64,000 nt of DNA from Skermanella rosea (GTDB taxonomy: Bacteria; Pseudomonadota; Alphaproteobacteria; Azospirillales; Azospirillaceae): NCBI RefSeq assembly GCF_016806835.2, contig NZ_CP086111.1:3403471-3467470 (forward strand), written 5' to 3'. Shown one piece after another: positions 14,650-23,423 of this stretch. Each line of letters starts with the position of its first letter. Positions within the stretch are counted from its first letter, which is position 1. A program made the translations under genes and the position numbers. The notes beneath the pieces are model-generated. The model had not been told where the DNA came from. It ran no database searches and was given only the letters and a program-made list of their open reading frames with translations.

Positions 14650-15825
14650 TCAAAGTGCTGCCGTGCGCGCCTTGATCGTTTCTATCCGGCCGACGATCTC
14701 ATAGTCGATCTCGCCGGTCCGCCAGTCCTGGAGTTGCTGGACGATCCGGTGGCGGATGCCGGCCAGGTTGTCCATCGTGACCCGGACCGTGTTCTCGCAC
14801 TCGCTTTTCGGGACCAGCGGGATGACGCGCATGATCTCCGCGATGCGGCGATGGTCGATGTTCTGCCGGTCGGCCATGGCGGCCTGCCAGAGTTCGCAGA
14901 CGTCGAGCCAGCCGTCGAGCAGCCAGGCCAGCCGGTCGATGCTCTGGCGCAGGCGGAGGATGTTTGCGTCCCAGCCGGCGAAAAAGGCCGGCAGGTTCTG
15001 AAGCTCGCGGTCGATCTCGGCGATCATCCGCTCGGCCATGCGGGCGGTGACGCCGGCGGTCTCGCCGGCCAGATGCCCGGTCGCGCCGATATTGGCGGCC
15101 GAGATCGAGTTGCGCAGGTCGCCGACCCGGCGCAGGATCCGGCGCAGGTAACCGGAATCCTCGTCGCCGGCGAAGCCCAGCGGTCCGACCGCGTCGCTCA
15201 GTTCGAGGATGCGCGCCCGGCACTGCCCCGGAGGCTGGCCCACCAGGCGCGCGAAGGCGTCGGCGACCTGGATGATCAGCGTCTCCCCGACCCGGCCGCG
15301 GACGCGCTGCATCAGGTCGTCGGTCGTCCTGTCGAGCACGCCGGTCAACCGGACGACCCGGCGCAGCATGGCCTCCTGATTGATCTTCTCTTCCCGGGCG
15401 ATACGGGCCATGGCGGCCCCGGCAGCCTCCGCCGCCTCCACCCCGGCCAGCCCGGTCTTGGCGACCCGATGGGCCGCGAGCCGCATGCGCATCGGCGTGA
15501 TCGCGTCGGCCAAGCTGATCTCCGCCTGGAGCGCCCGATCGTGCAGGGTCAGCCGCATCACGGAGGACAATCCGTCCCAGGGAAAGACATAAATCGAGCG
15601 GCATCCGGAGAAGCCCGTCACCAACACCTCCAGATGGTTGGTCCTGGTGTCGCGCCGGACCCGGGAGAACGCCAGCTCCGGCGTGGTGAAGGGAACGGTG
15701 GTGCCGCGCTCGTCGAAAGTCGACGGCGCGTAGTCGTAGGCGAGGCGGAGCGCCTGGGCATCGCCGGCGGACGGGGATCGGCCCGCTTCCGTCCCCCTGG
15801 CCATGGCTCTATTCATGGTTGGCAT
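14650..15825 (-). CDS. uncharacterised protein, paralogue A of the 14.6-19.4 kb locus
   Basis: 391 residues, not recognised. Residues about 30-135 look like a strand-rich domain with the stretches [32 protein letters not shown] and [13 protein letters not shown]. The remainder is largely helical and ends with [25 protein letters not shown] and [17 protein letters not shown]. All of these recur in the 397-residue protein encoded at 17417-18610, so the two are paralogues. No signal peptide or membrane helix is visible. The start overlaps the stop of the upstream gene by 17 bases; later ATGs (15816, 15804) would remove the overlap, so the N-terminus is uncertain. Probably co-transcribed with the 15809-17218 gene. 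Confidence 0.75.
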
Positions 15826-17218
15826 TCATGGCATGGATGATCTTCAGCAGGAATTGCGCTGGATCGGCGCTCGCGGCGAAACCGAGCCGGACGGCGCAGT
15901 CCTCCAGCATCCCCAGCACGGTTTCCTCGCTGCTGATCGGCTCGAGCGAGCGGGCGACCTGGACCGCGACGGATAGCGCGTTCTGCTTCTCGCGATTCCC
16001 GGCGGCGGCCCGGTCCGAGGCGATCCGCTCCAGACGCCCGGCCACCCCCGAGATGGTATCGGCCGTCAGGGCCTTCAGTTCGGCGGGAACCTCGAACTGC
16101 TGCTTCACCGCGTTGTTGACCTTCGCGACCGCCAGCACGGCCCGTGTCAGGGCGGCGATCTCCTCGGCGCTCGGCAGGCCGCCGCCCGGGGAAGAAACGA
16201 AGGAGCCGACGTTTTCCTCCGCGGCCTTGGTGAACCGGTCGCTCAGGAAATCGTGGATTCGCTCTTCGACCTTGTCGATCCGCTGGCCGACCTGCCGGGT
16301 CAGGTGCGGCGCAGCGACACGCAGCACGCCGAGGCTCTCGATCGCCGCCCTGACCTTTTCAGCCGCGTCGTCGAGGTCGCCTGCCGTTTCCAGCGGCATG
16401 GCGAATCCCGCCTTGAGGGTCTCGCCCTCCTTCGTGACCAGCGCCTCGCACAGGTCGGAGGCGACCGAGGGTCCGCCGCGGCTGCCGTTGCTCTCGGCCA
16501 GGGCCTCGATCAGCGGAGCGGTGTGGTCCGCCAAGTCCGGATCCATCAGGAGCACCATGAAGAACAGCTTGAACCAGCGCTGGTCGCCTTTCCGGGAGGC
16601 AGCCTCGCGGCCGAGCGAGATCACCGATTGGACATACTGGTCGCCGATCCCGATCAGCTGTTCGGACGCGATGATCTGGCGCCGGGCGGTCATGATGGCA
16701 TCGCGCATCTGGTAGAGCGCATGCACTTCCTGGATGACGTCGGGCAGGTCGGGATGCCGCTGCGCCAGGGCCTTGGGAAAGGAACGGTCCGCCGCCAGCC
16801 TGGAATGGATCCCCTCCACCGCGCGGGCGAAGGATGCGAAGAGCTGCCGGTGGACGGACAACGGGCACGGCTCGTCCATCAGGTACTCGCCGGAAGCATC
16901 CACCTGCCGCGCCGCCTCGGCGTCGTCCAGGTGCTCGAGCACCAGCGCCCACAAGGGGGAGACGCTGCTGCGCGGGATGCTGCCCAGGGGCCGCGGACGG
17001 GCCGGTTCGTTGCACAGCAGGCTTTCGAAGGGCAGGCAGAAGAGCCGCTCCGCGGTGAGCCTGCGCAGCGGACGGATCTTCTTCAGCCGATGGCGAAGCT
17101 GGTCCTTGAACATTCCGCGCAACGCGTCGTCGGGCATCTTGTCGGCCAGGGCATACACCATCCTGACCTTGTCCTCCGACAACTCGTCGAGCGCCTTTCT
17201 TTCCGGCAACTGAAGCAT
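15809..17218 (-). CDS. uncharacterised helical protein, middle gene of the 14.6-19.4 kb locus
   Basis: 469 residues from the ATG at 17218, which has GAAGGACAGAGAC upstream; the longest frame begins at 17260 but that part overlaps a palindrome-rich promoter region. The protein is almost entirely predicted helix and charged, with an early basic segment DQLRHRLKKIRPLRRLTAER and a Cys-containing CLPFESLLC. A serine/glycine loop SSPGGGLPSAEE separates the last quarter. No catalytic motif, signal peptide or membrane segment is seen. It reads into paralogue A with overlapping ends, and is divergent from paralogue B across about 200 bases. I cannot assign a function; a structural or adaptor protein is possible. 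Confidence 0.75.
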   Translation of the reverse strand: MLQLPERKALDELSEDKVRMVYALADKMPDDALRGMFKDQLRHRLKKIRPLRRLTAERLFCLPFESLLCNEPARPRPLGSIPRSSVSPLWALVLEHLDDAEAARQVDASGEYLMDEPCPLSVHRQLFASFARAVEGIHSRLAADRSFPKALAQRHPDLPDVIQEVHALYQMRDAIMTARRQIIASEQLIGIGDQYVQSVISLGREAASRKGDQRWFKLFFMVLLMDPDLADHTAPLIEALAESNGSRGGPSVASDLCEALVTKEGETLKAGFAMPLETAGDLDDAAEKVRAAIESLGVLRVAAPHLTRQVGQRIDKVEERIHDFLSDRFTKAAEENVGSFVSSPGGGLPSAEEIAALTRAVLAVAKVNNAVKQQFEVPAELKALTADTISGVAGRLERIASDRAAAGNREKQNALSVAVQVARSLEPISSEETVLGMLEDCAVRLGFAASADPAQFLLKIIHAMNANHE

Positions 17219-17260
17219 GTCTCTGTCCTTCGGCCACTCCAGGCATGATAGCCGGCACAC

Positions 17261-17285
17261 GTAAAAATTTACATACTATCGATAG
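17261..17285. promoter_or_regulatory. two adjacent palindromes in an AT-rich divergent promoter region
   Basis: GTAAA-AA-TTTAC (17261-17272) is followed three bases later by the perfect 10-bp palindrome CTATCGATAG (17276-17285). They lie in the AT-rich stretch of about 200 bases that separates the divergent genes at 17218 and 17417, the likely control region of the uncharacterised locus. They could be operators; no regulator gene is adjacent. Confidence 0.45.
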
Positions 17286-17416
17286 GAATAGTTCTCGGGA
17301 CTGGAACGGCATTGGTGGATTAACTGGATTTTTAACCAACGAGTGCTCTTCTGGAACACTATTACGATTACCCATATCTGCTTATACCTCTTTATATAGT
17401 TGGATATCTCCCAAGA

Positions 17417-18610
17417 ATGTCTAAAATGGTAGATATCGAAGAATGGGCGGCGATCTTGCCGGACGGTTGCATTTTGAGGGTTGGAATGACTGGTACCTCG
17501 GCCATCAGCCAAGTCGCGGATGTCGTCCAGGACATGGTGCCGTCCACGTTCGAGGAGCGTGGCACCACGATCCCCTTCACGACGCCCGAACTGGCCTATT
17601 CCCGCCTGCGCCGCGGCGCCCGCGGGAGCCTGGAAGTGCTGGTGAACGGCTTCTCCGGTGGGCGCTGCACCTATGTCTTCCCCTGGGCGAGCATCCCGCA
17701 GGTCGTTCGGCTCACCCTGCACGACAAGGCGCTTCATGCCGAAATCTCCTATTCCGACGCCACCACTCCGGACAAGATCCGGCTGGCAGCCTATCGGGTG
17801 GCGCGGACAGGGCTGGGCGGCCCGGAACTGATCGACATGGCCTCCCGATCGATCGAGCAGGAGGTGACCGAGAAGCTGGCCAGCAGTTTCTTCCTGATGC
17901 TGAAGGTGATCGAGGCGACCGGAGTCAACACCGACCGGGCGACGCTGGCCCTGATCAACATCAACTCGCCCGAAGGCAAGGCCATGGTCCGCCAGGCGTT
18001 CCGCCGGCTGGGCGACGGCATCGGCACCACCCCCGAGGTCTGCCACCAGCGCATCACCGAGCTGGGCGACGTGATCCAGCCCATCGGGTTCGAGATCGAA
18101 GGGCAGCGCGGACGGCTGCGCCAGCTTCTGCACCGCCTGAACCAGTTCCGCGACGAGGTCGTCCGGGGCGAGTCGGGCGGCACCGCCCGGACGCTGGCCG
18201 ACGTGGCGCAGCTTACCTTGAGGATCGGCAACGGGATCATCGCCGACATCGACCGCGACATCGCAGGCATCGTCCGCTACGTGACCGACTGGGACAGCCG
18301 CCTGCCCGCGACCCGCCAGAGCATGGAGCGGCTGTCCTGGCTGCTGGACGGCTGGACCTATGTCTGCGATCTCTGGGAGGACACCAATTCCGACCGGTCG
18401 GTTCCCAAGCGCCAGCGCATCAACGAGATCATGCGGATCATTCCGGTGGTCCCCAGGAGCGAGGCCAACTCCGGAGTCCGGACGGAAACGGGCGATCCCC
18501 AGCGCCGGCAGACCCGCATCGTCCAGCAGAACGAGGACTGGCGGACCGGACAGATCGACCATGAGATGGCGGCCAGGCTGGGCAGGCTCAATGCCCGCAC
18601 TCCGTCCTGA
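17417..18610 (+). CDS. uncharacterised protein, paralogue B of the 14.6-19.4 kb locus
   Basis: 397 residues, paralogous to the protein at 14650-15825. By eye, about two thirds of positions agree between [19 protein letters not shown] and the RVARTGLGG segment. It shares LEVLVNGFSGGR, YVFPW, RLSWLLDGW, INEIMRIIPVVPRSE and RIVQQNEDWRTGQIDHE. An additional N-terminal segment of about 40 residues (VDIEEWAAILPDGCILRVG) precedes the common part. The strand-rich N-terminal and helical C-terminal arrangement is the same. No strong ribosome site is seen at 17417; ATGs at 17426 and in MTGTSAISQ are alternatives. The next gene follows after 23 bases in the same direction. Confidence 0.75.
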   Translation: MSKMVDIEEWAAILPDGCILRVGMTGTSAISQVADVVQDMVPSTFEERGTTIPFTTPELAYSRLRRGARGSLEVLVNGFSGGRCTYVFPWASIPQVVRLTLHDKALHAEISYSDATTPDKIRLAAYRVARTGLGGPELIDMASRSIEQEVTEKLASSFFLMLKVIEATGVNTDRATLALININSPEGKAMVRQAFRRLGDGIGTTPEVCHQRITELGDVIQPIGFEIEGQRGRLRQLLHRLNQFRDEVVRGESGGTARTLADVAQLTLRIGNGIIADIDRDIAGIVRYVTDWDSRLPATRQSMERLSWLLDGWTYVCDLWEDTNSDRSVPKRQRINEIMRIIPVVPRSEANSGVRTETGDPQRRQTRIVQQNEDWRTGQIDHEMAARLGRLNARTPS

Positions 18611-18633
18611 ACCGGCCGGCGGGGGGCAGCGGC

Positions 18634-19011
18634 ATGGCTGACGCGAACGCCAGGGCGGGTACCGAAGGCGGCGAGTTCTACCGGGTCGTCGACAACACGG
18701 GCGAACTGATGGGCGAGTTCCCCTCGTCCAGGATCGCCCGGGAGTTCGCCCGCCGCATGATCGAGGCGGGCAAGGCCAGCACCCTGGTCGTGGAATGGTC
18801 CAACAACGGCCGGCGCGGGGAACTCTCGATCACCCGCAGGATGGTCAACGCGGCCGAGAAGCGCGCGGCCGAGGCGAAGCGCCGGGCGCACCTGGAGGCG
18901 CGCCGCAGGGCCAACCTGATCAGCGGCCTCGCCGCGGCGGTCGTGGCCTTCCTGGCGCTGATCCAGATCGCCGCGACCTACGTGGAGGCCAGGGGAAACC
19001 TCTGGCCCTAG
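18634..19011 (+). CDS. small protein with basic helix and C-terminal membrane segment
   Basis: 125 residues, not recognised. A strand-rich N-terminal part (EFYRVVDNTGELMGEFPSS, ASTLVVEWSNNG) is followed by a long Ala/Arg/Lys-rich helix (EKRAAEAKRRAHLEARRRAN) and one hydrophobic helix, LISGLAAAVVAFLALIQIAA, close to the C-terminus. It is probably a tail-anchored inner-membrane protein with its body in the cytoplasm. The ribosome site GGCGGGGGGCAG precedes the ATG, and it follows paralogue B by 23 bases, so the two likely form an operon. It overlaps the convergent gene by four bases. Confidence 0.7.
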   Translation: MADANARAGTEGGEFYRVVDNTGELMGEFPSSRIAREFARRMIEAGKASTLVVEWSNNGRRGELSITRRMVNAAEKRAAEAKRRAHLEARRRANLISGLAAAVVAFLALIQIAATYVEARGNLWP

Positions 19012-19373
19012 CTCCCGGCCGAGCGGTTCATGCCGATCTCCAGGATCGCGAACTCGGCTGCCAGCCGGTCGCGGGCCCGTTCCATCGCGTCGATGTCCTC
19101 CAACAGCAGGGCGTCCTGGCAATCGGCGCAGAACTGCCTGACCACGAGAGCCTCCTCCAGGGCGTCCCCAAGGTCGTCCGAGAAGCTGGCGAGCTCAGCC
19201 ACCATACGTCCGGCAACCTCGCCGATCATCTCGGCCTGTGTCTCGAGGTCGCGGAACAGTTCGGCCGCGGTCACCGCATAGGGAACCTCCCGGGAAGCGG
19301 CGGCGCGGCTGCGGGCGGCGCGGACTTCGGCGAGATCGACGATGCCGGTACCCTGGGATGGATTGGGATTCAT
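19008..19373 (-). CDS. hypothetical helical protein
   Basis: 121 residues, unrecognised. After a disordered start and an AARSRAAAS basic patch, the body looks like two long amphipathic helices (AELFRDLETQAEMIGEVAGRM and DDLGDALEEALVVRQ), with a CADC pair near residue 90. GCGAGGTATAC precedes the ATG. It converges on the small membrane protein gene, overlapping by four bases. Whether it belongs to the neighbouring uncharacterised locus is not clear. Coiled-coil adaptor or chaperone-like roles are only guesses. Confidence 0.6.
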   Translation of the reverse strand: MNPNPSQGTGIVDLAEVRAARSRAAASREVPYAVTAAELFRDLETQAEMIGEVAGRMVAELASFSDDLGDALEEALVVRQFCADCQDALLLEDIDAMERARDRLAAEFAILEIGMNRSAGS

Positions 19374-19589: not shown

Positions 19590-20579
19590 TCAGTCCGTGA
19601 ACTCCGCCCGGATCTTCAGCACGGCGGGCAGGTTGGCGAAGAAGGCATCAATGCAGACCGGATCGAAATGCGTCCCGGCATTGTCCCGAAGGAACGCCAG
19701 CGCCTCCTCCAGGGACCATGCCGCCTTGTACGGACGCCGGGTGGTCAGCGCGTCGAAAACGTCGGCGATGGCGATGATGCGGCCTGCCAGCGGGATCTCC
19801 TCCCCCTTGAGGCCCTCGGGATACCCGGTGCCGTCGTATTTCTCGTGATGGGTCAGCGCGATCGATGCCGCGAGGCGGATCAGGGGAGAGGAGCTGTCGT
19901 CCAGGATACGGTAGCCGTGGACAGTGTGCAGCTTCATGATCTCGTATTCTTCCGGCGTGTAACGGCCCGGCTTGAACAGGATCTCGTCGGCAACCGCCAC
20001 CTTGCCGACATCGTGCATGGGAGCGGCCATCTGGATACGCTCCTGCATCGCGTCGGACATCCCGACGCCCGCCGCGATGACCCGGGCGTAGCGTGCCATC
20101 CGGTCCAGGTGGGCACCGGTCTCGCTGTCCCGGGATTCGATGGAGCGCGACAGCCGCATGATCAGTTCGTTCGCCGCCTGCTCCCGCAGCCGACGATGGC
20201 TGGCCCGGAGTTCCAGCAGGTTGCGGCACCGCGCGGTGAACTCGATGCGATCGATCGGCTTGCTCAGGAAGTCGGTGACCCCTCGGACCAGCGCTTCGCG
20301 CCGGAATTCCTTGGCCCCCTGCCCGGTCACCATGATGACCGGAACCTCGGCCGTGTTCCCGATGCCCCGAAGGCGGTGCAGGAATTCGAGACCGTCCATC
20401 TTCGGCATCATGAAGTCCGTGACGACCAGGTCGACATCGTGCCCGTCACACCAGTCCAGGGCTTCGGACGCGCAGCCCACGCCATGGACGGAAGCGCCGG
20501 CGATCGCCTGGGCGTAGCGGCTCATCAGCATCAGGTTCGCCGGATTGTCGTCGACGATCAGCAGGTCCATGGTGGTCAT
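19590..20579 (-). CDS. response regulator with HD-GYP cyclic di-GMP phosphodiesterase domain
   Basis: 329 residues from the ATG at 20579, behind a strong GGGAGGATGCA site. Receiver domain at about 4-120: acidic pair DD10-11, phospho-acceptor Asp55 in VVTDFMMPKMDG, Lys in LSKPID. HD-GYP domain at about 140-310 with the metal-binding HD (189-190, MHDVGKVAVADE) and the complete HHEKYDGTGYP signature (244-254), so it is predicted to be an active c-di-GMP phosphodiesterase in the cytoplasm. It lies 26 bases downstream of a hybrid kinase with an HPt domain, its likely phosphodonor. The module would link a periplasmic signal to c-di-GMP level. Confidence 0.93.
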   Translation of the reverse strand: MTTMDLLIVDDNPANLMLMSRYAQAIAGASVHGVGCASEALDWCDGHDVDLVVTDFMMPKMDGLEFLHRLRGIGNTAEVPVIMVTGQGAKEFRREALVRGVTDFLSKPIDRIEFTARCRNLLELRASHRRLREQAANELIMRLSRSIESRDSETGAHLDRMARYARVIAAGVGMSDAMQERIQMAAPMHDVGKVAVADEILFKPGRYTPEEYEIMKLHTVHGYRILDDSSSPLIRLAASIALTHHEKYDGTGYPEGLKGEEIPLAGRIIAIADVFDALTTRRPYKAAWSLEEALAFLRDNAGTHFDPVCIDAFFANLPAVLKIRAEFTD

Positions 20580-20605
20580 TGCATCCTCCCGATCCAGGTT
20601 CCGGT

Positions 20606-22825
20606 TCACGCCGCGAGTTTACGCGACAGCAGGGCGCGGCGGGCGTCGGCCAGGTCCGCTTCGAGCCGATCCACCATCCGGCCGAGGGCTGGCTGCGCCC
20701 CGGCTATCCCGTCGCCGCGTCCCGCGACCGCGGTGCGCAGCCTTTCGCTGGCCGCCACCAGCGCCGGCAGCCCGAGCGTTCCCGCGGCGCCCGACAGGCT
20801 GTGCAGTTCAACTTCCACCGCCCCGAAGTCCCCGGCCGCCAGACGGTCGCGGACCCTGCCGATGCGGCCCCCGGAGTCCTTCAGGAACGTCTCGAACAGC
20901 TTGCCGGCATCCGGTCCCATGGTCTCCAGCAGATCCTCCAGCGCGTTCGGGTCGACGATGGGCGCGGCGAATCCCGCGTTCTCCGGCGGGACCCTGTCGC
21001 GGCCCCAGGTCCGCACGACCTCGTCGAGCCGGGCCCGGCTGATCGGCTTGGGCATGTAGTCGCTCATGCCGGCATCGATGCAGCGGGCCTCGTCGCCGCG
21101 CATGGCATGGGCCGTCAGCGCGATGATCGGGATCGTGGACGCATCACCGCCGAGCGCGCGGATGCAGCGGGTCGCGTCGAAGCCGTCCATCTCCGGCATC
21201 TCGATATCCATGAGCACCAGGTCGTAGCCGCCCCGTTCGACGCGGTCGACCGCCTCGATGCCGTTGCCGACCACGTCGACCACATGCCCGCGCCGCTTCA
21301 GCATGCCTGCGGCCACCTGCTGGTTCACCGGATTGTCGTCCGCCACCAGGATCCGCAACGGCCGGCCGTCGCCCGCCTGGGAAAGCTGTGCAGGCAACCG
21401 GCCCGACACGTGCGCCGCCGACGCGGCAAGCCCGGCGCCCGGCGGTTCCGGCTTGGCCGGTACGGCCTCGACCGATCCTAGCGCCGGCCTCAGCGGCAAG
21501 GTGAACCAGAAGGTGCTTCCGCTGCCCTGGACGCTCTCGACGCCGATGCGCCCGCCCATCATCTCCACGAGGCGCCGGCTGATGGCGAGGCCGAGGCCGG
21601 TGCCGCCGGACTTTCCGCGCTCCTGCCCGTCGACCTGATTGAACATCTGGAACAGTCCGGCCCGTCCCTGCTCGGATATCCCGATGCCGCTGTCCCGGAC
21701 GGACAATTTCAACTCCCCCGGAGCCCCTACCTCGACCAGGACGCCGACGCTACCCTGGGGCGTGAATTTCACCGCGTTTCCAACCAGGTTCATGAGGACT
21801 TGGCGGACCCGGCCGGCGTCGCCCCGGAGCGCCACGCGCGCCGCGGGATCGATCACCGCCTCCATCGCGATGCCCTTCTCGGCGGCACCGGGAGTCAGCA
21901 GATCGACCACGCCCCGGACCAGCGGCTCGAGCTCAAAGTCGGCATCGTCGAGTTCGAGACGCCCGGCCTCCATCTTGGAGAAGTCCAGGATGTCGTTGAG
22001 CACCGTCAGCAGGGCCTCCGCCGAGGTCAGGATCACCTGGGCCTGACGCCGCTGCTCGGGACCGAGGGGAGTCTCCAGCAGCAGGTCGGCCATGCCGATG
22101 ACGCCGTTCATCGGCGTGCGGATCTCGTGGCTCATCGTCGCCAGGAAGACGGATTTGGCGCGGTTCGCGGCCTCCGCGGCGGACAGGGCCTGCTCGAGGT
22201 CGGCGGCCAGCGCCGTCTGCCGGACGCGGGCGCGGTGGAGGTCCCGAAGCTGCCGGAACAGCAGGAACACAAGCCCCGCCATGCTGGCCGCCAGCGCCGC
22301 GACGCAGATCGCGAGCAGGGTCGAAAGACGGTGGGTGCGCTCGCGAAAATCCACCATGTCCGCCGAGCGGCGGGCGTTCATCCTGACCAGCTGCTGTTCC
22401 GTCAATTGCCGCAACCGGCGGACCGCCTCGCGGAACGGCTCCACCGCGGTCAGTTCGACATAGGGCGACAGCGACTCGATCTCGGTGACGATCCGCTCCG
22501 CAAGGTCGCGGTCGGCCGGATTGATCGCGATGATGCCGGCCAGCTGGCCGCCGCGGAGCAGGTTGGTCCGGCTGAACAGGATGTCGTACCGGAGAGACAC
22601 TTCGCCCGCATGTTCCGGCGACGGACTGGCGACATAAGTCGCGAGCGCCGACTCCAGCTTCACCGTCTCGCGGTCCAACTGATAGACCGCCCAGACCGCG
22701 TCCTCGCGCACGCTGTTCTCGACTTCCGCCTGGCGATCGATCAGGAGGGCCAGCAGCACGACGCAGGAGCCGAACAGCAAGCCGCTGAGCGCGAGCAGCA
22801 GCCGCGCGCGCAGGGACTGGATCAC
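20606..22825 (-). CDS. hybrid sensor histidine kinase (HisKA-HATPase-REC-HPt)
   Basis: 739 residues from a GTG start at 22825, chosen because AGGAGGT lies nine bases upstream and the first transmembrane helix ([22 protein letters not shown]) follows directly; a frame from 22912 would add about 29 non-membrane residues. A periplasmic domain at about 32-167 is bounded by a second helix ([19 protein letters not shown]). Then come HisKA with His233 ([10 protein letters not shown]), HATPase ([22 protein letters not shown]), a receiver with Asp540 ([12 protein letters not shown]) and an HPt domain with His675 ([12 protein letters not shown]). This BarA-like phosphorelay probably feeds the adjacent HD-GYP regulator. 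The small YedY-like periplasmic protein upstream may supply the signal. Confidence 0.93.
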
Positions 22826-22898
22826 GATCGGCCACCTCCTGATTGACGGCATGGACGGAAGAACCATTGCACTGCGGCCACGGTGCGAATGCACCGGC

Positions 22899-23423
22899 TC
22901 ACTGGACCTCAATGCTCTTTACCTGCCAGACCGAGCGACCGAAATAAACTTCGTTGTAGAGATCCGGATTGGTGTCGAAGGGGTAGATCACGAAAATCGG
23001 TCCCTGATGGCGTACCGGCAGATAGACGTCGTTCTTCTTCAGCGCGAGTATGACATCGAACTTCATGAAATCGTCGAACGGGACTTCGGCGGAATAATCG
23101 TTCAGCGCCGTGATCCGAAGCTTGGAGCCTTTCGCTCCGACCGCCTGCAGAACGGCCCGGGCGAGCGGCCCCTCGAACGCGTTCACACCTTCCGCCCAGG
23201 GGGTCGTCACCTTAGCCACCCGGCCGGGCAAGGCTTCCAGCATCGCGACGTCGAACTGCGCCCCGGCGGCGCCGTTGGTCTGAGAGATCTTGCCGCTGAC
23301 GGTCAGCACGACCGGCCCGCTCGGCGCCGCGAGCGTTGCGGCGGCGGCCGAATGGAATGCTGACATCCAGATCATCAGCGCGAAGGCGACCAGGATACGG
23401 ATGGGGCGATGCGACGCGAACAT
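22899..23423 (-). CDS. exported molybdopterin-oxidoreductase-like (YedY-fold) protein without cofactor cysteine
   Basis: 174 residues from ATG 23423, preceded by AGAGGTG. A hydrophobic signal peptide ends near SAAAA. The mature part ([51 protein letters not shown]) resembles small proteins of the sulfite-oxidase/YedY superfamily often encoded beside signalling proteins. No cysteine is present in the mature part, so a cysteine-ligated molybdenum cofactor is unlikely and it may bind a ligand instead. It is 73 bases upstream of the hybrid kinase and on the same strand, suggesting a periplasmic partner of that kinase. Family membership is by pattern and moderately sure. Confidence 0.75.

Follow-up and report, generated by a model that had tools for sequence, protein, structure and literature searches.

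Within a 64,000-nucleotide stretch of the 7.76-Mb genome of the soil bacterium Skermanella rosea (Azospirillaceae; G000:C1:3403471-3467470, hereafter the window), five adjacent genes form a locus built around two protein families that we call P and H. P is the family of two of the products, A and B; H is an all-helical protein of 469 residues, and S and C are two small proteins. All five open reading frames of a preliminary description of this DNA were found. A (391 residues; 14650-15825) and H (15809-17218), whose start codon, ATG 17218, is kept in relatives, lie on the minus strand. B (374 residues; 17486-18610) is encoded on the plus strand and is followed 23 bp later by S (18634-19011, plus strand), a basic protein of 125 residues with an isoelectric point of 10.7. 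The acidic, helical C (121 residues; 19008-19373, minus strand) converges with S. A and B are indeed paralogues, with 42% identity across 373 residues (E 3e-92), and the gene ends are coupled as had been described: H and A share 17 nucleotides (15809-15825), and S and C, which converge, overlap at their stop codons (19008-19011). S also has the membrane anchor claimed for it, one transmembrane segment near its C terminus (residues 95-113, with a mean hydropathy of 2.42), and the same hydropathy check found no such segment in A, B, H or C.

The two halves of the locus diverge from a common control region. Although the frame of B is open from 17417, an alignment places its start most likely at ATG 17486: other Skermanella lack the ATGs at 17417 and 17426, and ATG 17486 is kept in all five genomes sampled. 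The divergent region between H and B is therefore 267 bp long (17219-17485). It is as AT-rich as first reported, with 37% GC at 17261-17410 compared to 67-69% in the genes. Aligning this region from the five Skermanella revealed three conserved blocks, TACTATCGATAG, CTTT.TATAG and GTCTAAAAT, the first of which includes the perfect palindrome CTATCGATAG (17276-17285) while the other two are AT-rich. An 11-mer carrying CTATCGATAG occurs once in the window and in none of 100 shuffles; among all fetched loci it is present solely at the H-B site, in every Skermanella copy. The two divergent units have a conserved regulatory region in common, and its palindrome is a candidate operator that would likely set the balance of A and B.

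The gene order and orientation A-H-B-S-C is retained in all five sampled Skermanella genomes, bearing out the conserved order with a duplicated component that had been noted earlier. Measured against the two nearest genomes, the ratios of nonsynonymous to synonymous substitution rates are 0.03-0.05 for A and B (about 0.05 and 0.04, respectively), 0.10-0.12 for H and 0.19-0.29 for S and C. All five genes are thus under purifying selection, which is strong on A, B and H; C, with values put at 0.2-0.45 overall, is the least constrained. In S. aerolata (L108), the five genes and the next three stay linked though both flanks differ. These three encode a response regulator with an HD-GYP-type HD domain (19590-20609 in the window, minus strand; Pfam Response_reg and HD_5), which adjoins C in 5/5 Skermanella, a hybrid histidine kinase with HisKA, HATPase_c, receiver and Hpt domains (20606-22912, minus strand; also syntenic in 5/5), and a secreted protein. 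Because the conserved segment extends to the right in this way, the boundary of the five-gene unit is arbitrary.

Outside Skermanella, only P and H are conserved together. S was present in all five Skermanella, and no genome beyond that genus yielded it; C is found in the same five, each with a second copy, and elsewhere gives weak matches in two genera alone; B is an extra P. The proposal that the five genes form a functional system therefore stands for P and H, which behave as a functional pair, but not for the five genes as a unit. A neighbourhood comparison that might have shown the genes never to be conserved together, or to match unrelated known families, showed neither. The unit that has stayed stable in evolution is P together with H, smaller and more widespread than the five-gene locus.

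Both families are centred on the Azospirillaceae. The window's genome has five P genes, with H matches at four further places. Of 99 relatives, 54 have P and 57 have H, and almost all of these belong to the same family, in which genomes have several P and H copies and nearly every one sampled has at least one. In profile searches of 385 genomes drawn from the Alphaproteobacteria, we detected P (including the related Q family, described below) in 65 and H in 62; a phylum-wide draw gave three matches outside this class, all with E above 1e-5. A single-protein scan matched two Skermanella alone (S. stibiiresistens and S. aerolata), and tblastn of H against plasmids gave no match, a limit of its sensitivity, as H genes adjoin P on those plasmids. 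A six-frame search also returned long P frames of 1105-1985 residues that might have been fusions; the one we examined, in L104, proved to be no fusion but an open frame antisense to genes called at the corresponding place in L103.

Among the fetched loci, which were selected for the presence of P or H, 74 of the 97 P genes have a same-strand H no more than 500 bp away, arranged as P-H in 64 cases and as H-P in 10; this fraction describes P-bearing loci rather than genomes. The gaps are mostly 0-30 bp, or the genes overlap, so that the two are often coupled in translation. The same loci hold 23 unpaired P genes (B and its orthologues in Skermanella account for five) and 18 unpaired H genes. 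In several genera trxA adjoins P-H, an old synteny that speaks for a cellular function retained by vertical descent. One locus (L205:7330-12562) is a tandem P-H-P-H array whose two P proteins are sisters in the P tree. Solo H genes at L116, L230 and L232 adjoin a sensor kinase/response regulator pair, and those at L230 and L232 also lie near CcmF-like cytochrome c maturation genes and a gene for a DegP-like protease.

The histories of the two families run in parallel. We built trees of 89 P proteins and 74 paired H proteins by quick searches, with branch support from the Shimodaira-Hasegawa-like approximate likelihood-ratio test only, and recovered the same clades in both. The P and H distance matrices correlate with r = 0.78, compared to at most 0.26 after full shuffling. 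Re-pairing H among the loci of one genome, which keeps the species history, averaged 0.41 and peaked at 0.65, so that none of 1000 trials reached the observed value. For 52 of the 74 pairs, the nearest neighbour is the same in the two trees. P-H pairs are thus inherited as units, and matched inheritance of this kind usually reflects a physical or functional partnership; we conclude that P and H very probably work together. Profile comparison detected no homology between P and H. An adjacent same-strand H and congruent trees, the marks of a matched module, are found for A with H, while B is divergent from that same H. On the P tree, A pairs with B at modest support (81), and the two join a Skermanella clade of H-P loci (L042, L107, L110 and L131; support 90), a topology consistent with a P duplication inside a Skermanella H-P locus.

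At curated Pfam and NCBIfam cut-offs, A, B, H and C belong to no family and S has only sub-threshold chance matches, and scanning 53 P and 56 H members singly against these databases gave isolated matches with E above 0.001. PADLOC yielded no meaningful match (best E 0.0013, to a Q protein), nor did PHROGs. The family scans also detected neither an EAL, GGDEF, HD-GYP or PilZ domain nor a domain of the cNMP_binding or cyclase type in P and H. Sequence profiles of PDB entries gave only chance matches to coiled coils and designed bundles, and a literature search found no paper naming P or H genes.

The AlphaFold 2 model of B, representing P, has a mean predicted local distance difference test (pLDDT) score of 80.6 and begins with a disordered stretch, followed by a small portion containing three strands (63-66, 72-77 and 85-89) and by a helical bundle that holds a conserved WLLDGW (308-313; numbers refer to a 397-residue frame). 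Near-invariant residues (T44, R48, G49, F54, P57, R63, R65, E73, Y86 and D103) cluster in the N-terminal part. The model of H (pLDDT 87.0) is all alpha, with an Arg-rich N-terminal motif at residues of about 40-85 in which R41, L44, R51, R57, P62, E64 and R82 are near-invariant (numbered in a 468-residue query). Foldseek and VIA-align matched neither model beyond the level of a helical bundle, and helical models match this well by chance, so that scores of this level speak neither for nor against kinship. The best natural Foldseek matches of H were the CATCHR/MUN rods Exo70, Sec8 and Munc13, whose likeness is that of a long helical rod; the scores (E about 0.01, template modelling score 0.2-0.3, Z 7-10) fall in the range of those of unrelated helical models, and there is no sequence match. 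P and H are undescribed families, for which we found no curated family, convincing fold match or published function.

The closest relative of P is an unnamed alphaproteobacterial family, Q, which aligns with it over nearly its full length (hhalign probability 96.8, E 2.4e-10, 273 columns). Q resembles P in having an N-terminal part and a helical bundle, but unlike P it has no adjacent H in the fetched loci. Directly upstream of Q in two Azospirillaceae genera (L097:4115-6696 and L099:4243-6721) is a degenerate GGDEF-EAL gene, whose EAL match (E 2e-4 to 2e-5) falls below the cut-off. Two other kinds of neighbour recur beside P and H. In three genera (L076, L084 and L085) the pair is followed by further genes in a P-H-M74-M35-M176 operon, where M35 and M176 are small coiled-coil proteins anchored in the membrane at their N termini; at L268:4032-6102, M35-M176 directly follows Q. 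M35-M176 is itself an undescribed tandem pair with several copies per Azospirillaceae genome (for example, L275-L291), and it mostly occurs apart from P, H or Q. We also considered S as a member of the M35/M176 membrane family and found no support for this. The second kind of neighbour is an EAL-type cyclic di-GMP (c-di-GMP) phosphodiesterase (PF00563): the gene of a PAS-EAL protein immediately precedes H-P in three Skermanella species (L042, L110 and L131), as does that of another, 32% identical to it over the full length, in a different genus (L129). The two H-P orders lie apart on the P tree. EAL enters these loci as a neighbour only, and no third partner is common to all P-H loci.

We propose, with a probability of roughly 0.4, that the locus elaborates, in Skermanella alone, on a two-gene P-H module in which P and H form a cytoplasmic signalling adaptor complex, with one H using two alternative P subunits. 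In this model P and H would bind one another in a single complex, P contributing its small N-terminal part, whose invariant polar residues likely bind a ligand or partner, together with its helical bundle, and H serving as an extended helical scaffold whose N terminus bears an Arg-rich hook. We regard an adaptor or scaffold as likelier than an enzyme because neither protein has a recognised catalytic domain and both are helical, a choice that may prove mistaken should the polar residues conserved in P make up an active site. The duplication of P would have produced one coupled transcription unit, H-A, and a divergent one, B-S, served by the same 267-bp region, so that H could pair with A or B as alternative partners. 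S, translated right after B, would perhaps hold the B form at the membrane, and the palindrome would act as the operator governing which P predominates. Several observations favour this model, beside the adjacency and matched inheritance of P and H, the synteny with trxA and the strong purifying selection described above: P and H have no transmembrane segment and S has one; small membrane coiled-coil proteins follow P-H in three genera and Q at one locus; and PAS-EAL genes, as signalling neighbours, precede H-P in two genera whose H-P orders are separate on the P tree.

Other observations weigh against it. Pairing is not obligatory, with P found apart from H at L198, L199, L207 and L220-L225, among others, and H apart from P as well. 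S lacks homology to M176, so the membrane analogy is functional guesswork, and it is from gene position alone that we infer the sharing of H by A and B. The 111 dereplicated direct neighbours of P-H have no family in common, the highest count for any being 3, and signalling domains show no clear excess beside P-H over genes 3-4 positions away. A bolder version of the model, in which P-H is an undescribed two-protein signalling complex duplicated into specific pairs, as two-component systems are, and ties cyclic-nucleotide or c-di-GMP enzymes to cell development (encystment) or envelope state, Skermanella having evolved a switch in which a soluble P and a membrane-tethered P make use of one H, seems to us unlikely.

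Among the alternatives, P-H might be the output or control module of c-di-GMP or cyclic GMP (cGMP; encystment) signalling, sensing or gating a cyclase, a phosphodiesterase or a CRP-type regulator. The EAL-H-P arrangement would fit this, as would the HD-GYP regulator after C in the window and a CRP-type gene upstream of H-P in L107. Further evidence comes from Rhodospirillum centenum. The published footprint of its cGMP-CRP protein CgrA, TGTGAAGCAGTTCACA (PMC4681086), is found at G006:C1:3935237 in a genome that we take to be this species, and a P-H-M operon lies there, a few kb away from the CgrA, gcyB and gcyC genes and converging on them. L085, from a related genus, also carries these CRP and YcaO genes close to its P-H pair, and in L084 a class III cyclase follows P-H-M74-M35-M176 after 28 bp. 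Set against this, the link to cgrA is limited to two related genera, P and H match no known c-di-GMP or cyclic nucleotide binding domain, Azospirillaceae genomes are rich in such signalling genes, and most P-H copies adjoin housekeeping genes. Because the direct neighbours share no family and are no richer in signalling than genes a few positions off, this second-messenger link is suggestive only, a lead rather than a finding, and we consider such an output or control module doubtful.

We think it improbable, too, that P-H builds or positions an envelope structure such as a pole, septum, cyst coat or pilus together with membrane coiled-coil proteins. The operons that end in M35-M176 and a P-H pair within a chaperone-usher cluster (L078 and L087) speak for this, but most P-H copies have no membrane partner, M35-M176 is mostly found elsewhere, and the weak likeness of H to Exo70 and MUN-type rods lies within the range obtained with long helical models in general. 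If P-H were a toxin-antitoxin or anti-phage cassette, this would account for the coupled two-gene layout, the multiple paralogous copies, their scattered positions and the lack of fixed neighbours; such a cassette is very unlikely, however, given two strongly constrained proteins of about 400 residues each, an old vertical synteny with trxA across genera, a copy in nearly every sampled Azospirillaceae genome and the absence of meaningful E-values in the PADLOC and PHROGs comparisons. Finally, the five genes might be adjacent through history alone, with P-H functional and S, C and the extra P as passengers. S and C are not kept with P-H outside Skermanella, and C is the least constrained, yet the five genes and three more stay linked in S. 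aerolata despite differing flanks and the 23-bp spacing of B and S suggests a single transcript, so we hold this account to be rather unlikely.

In the genome taken to be R. centenum, one P-H copy lies close to cgrA, gcyB and gcyC on the other strand, and we considered whether P and H might be the gcyB and gcyC "putative guanylyl cyclase subunits". We reject this, as those genes encode YcaO and TfuA proteins, not P or H. At L305:17478-19674 of that genome, the two open reading frames between the CgrA site and the CRP gene, where gcyB and gcyC should lie, match YcaO (E 3e-89) and TfuA (7e-47), pointing to peptide-backbone modification rather than cyclase subunits.

P and H are present in about one-sixth of sampled alphaproteobacterial genomes, as matched paralogous pairs under selection. 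Their matched inheritance makes a physical interaction directly testable, and R. centenum is genetically tractable. If the pairs are specific, they would offer a model for the evolution of partner specificity outside two-component and toxin-antitoxin systems, although P-H might still prove to be a modest housekeeping adaptor. Copies of both genes have also decayed: the window's own genome holds an H copy with an internal TAG (L043:6461-9273), and another Skermanella has a P copy split by a stop codon (L113:6659-7761).

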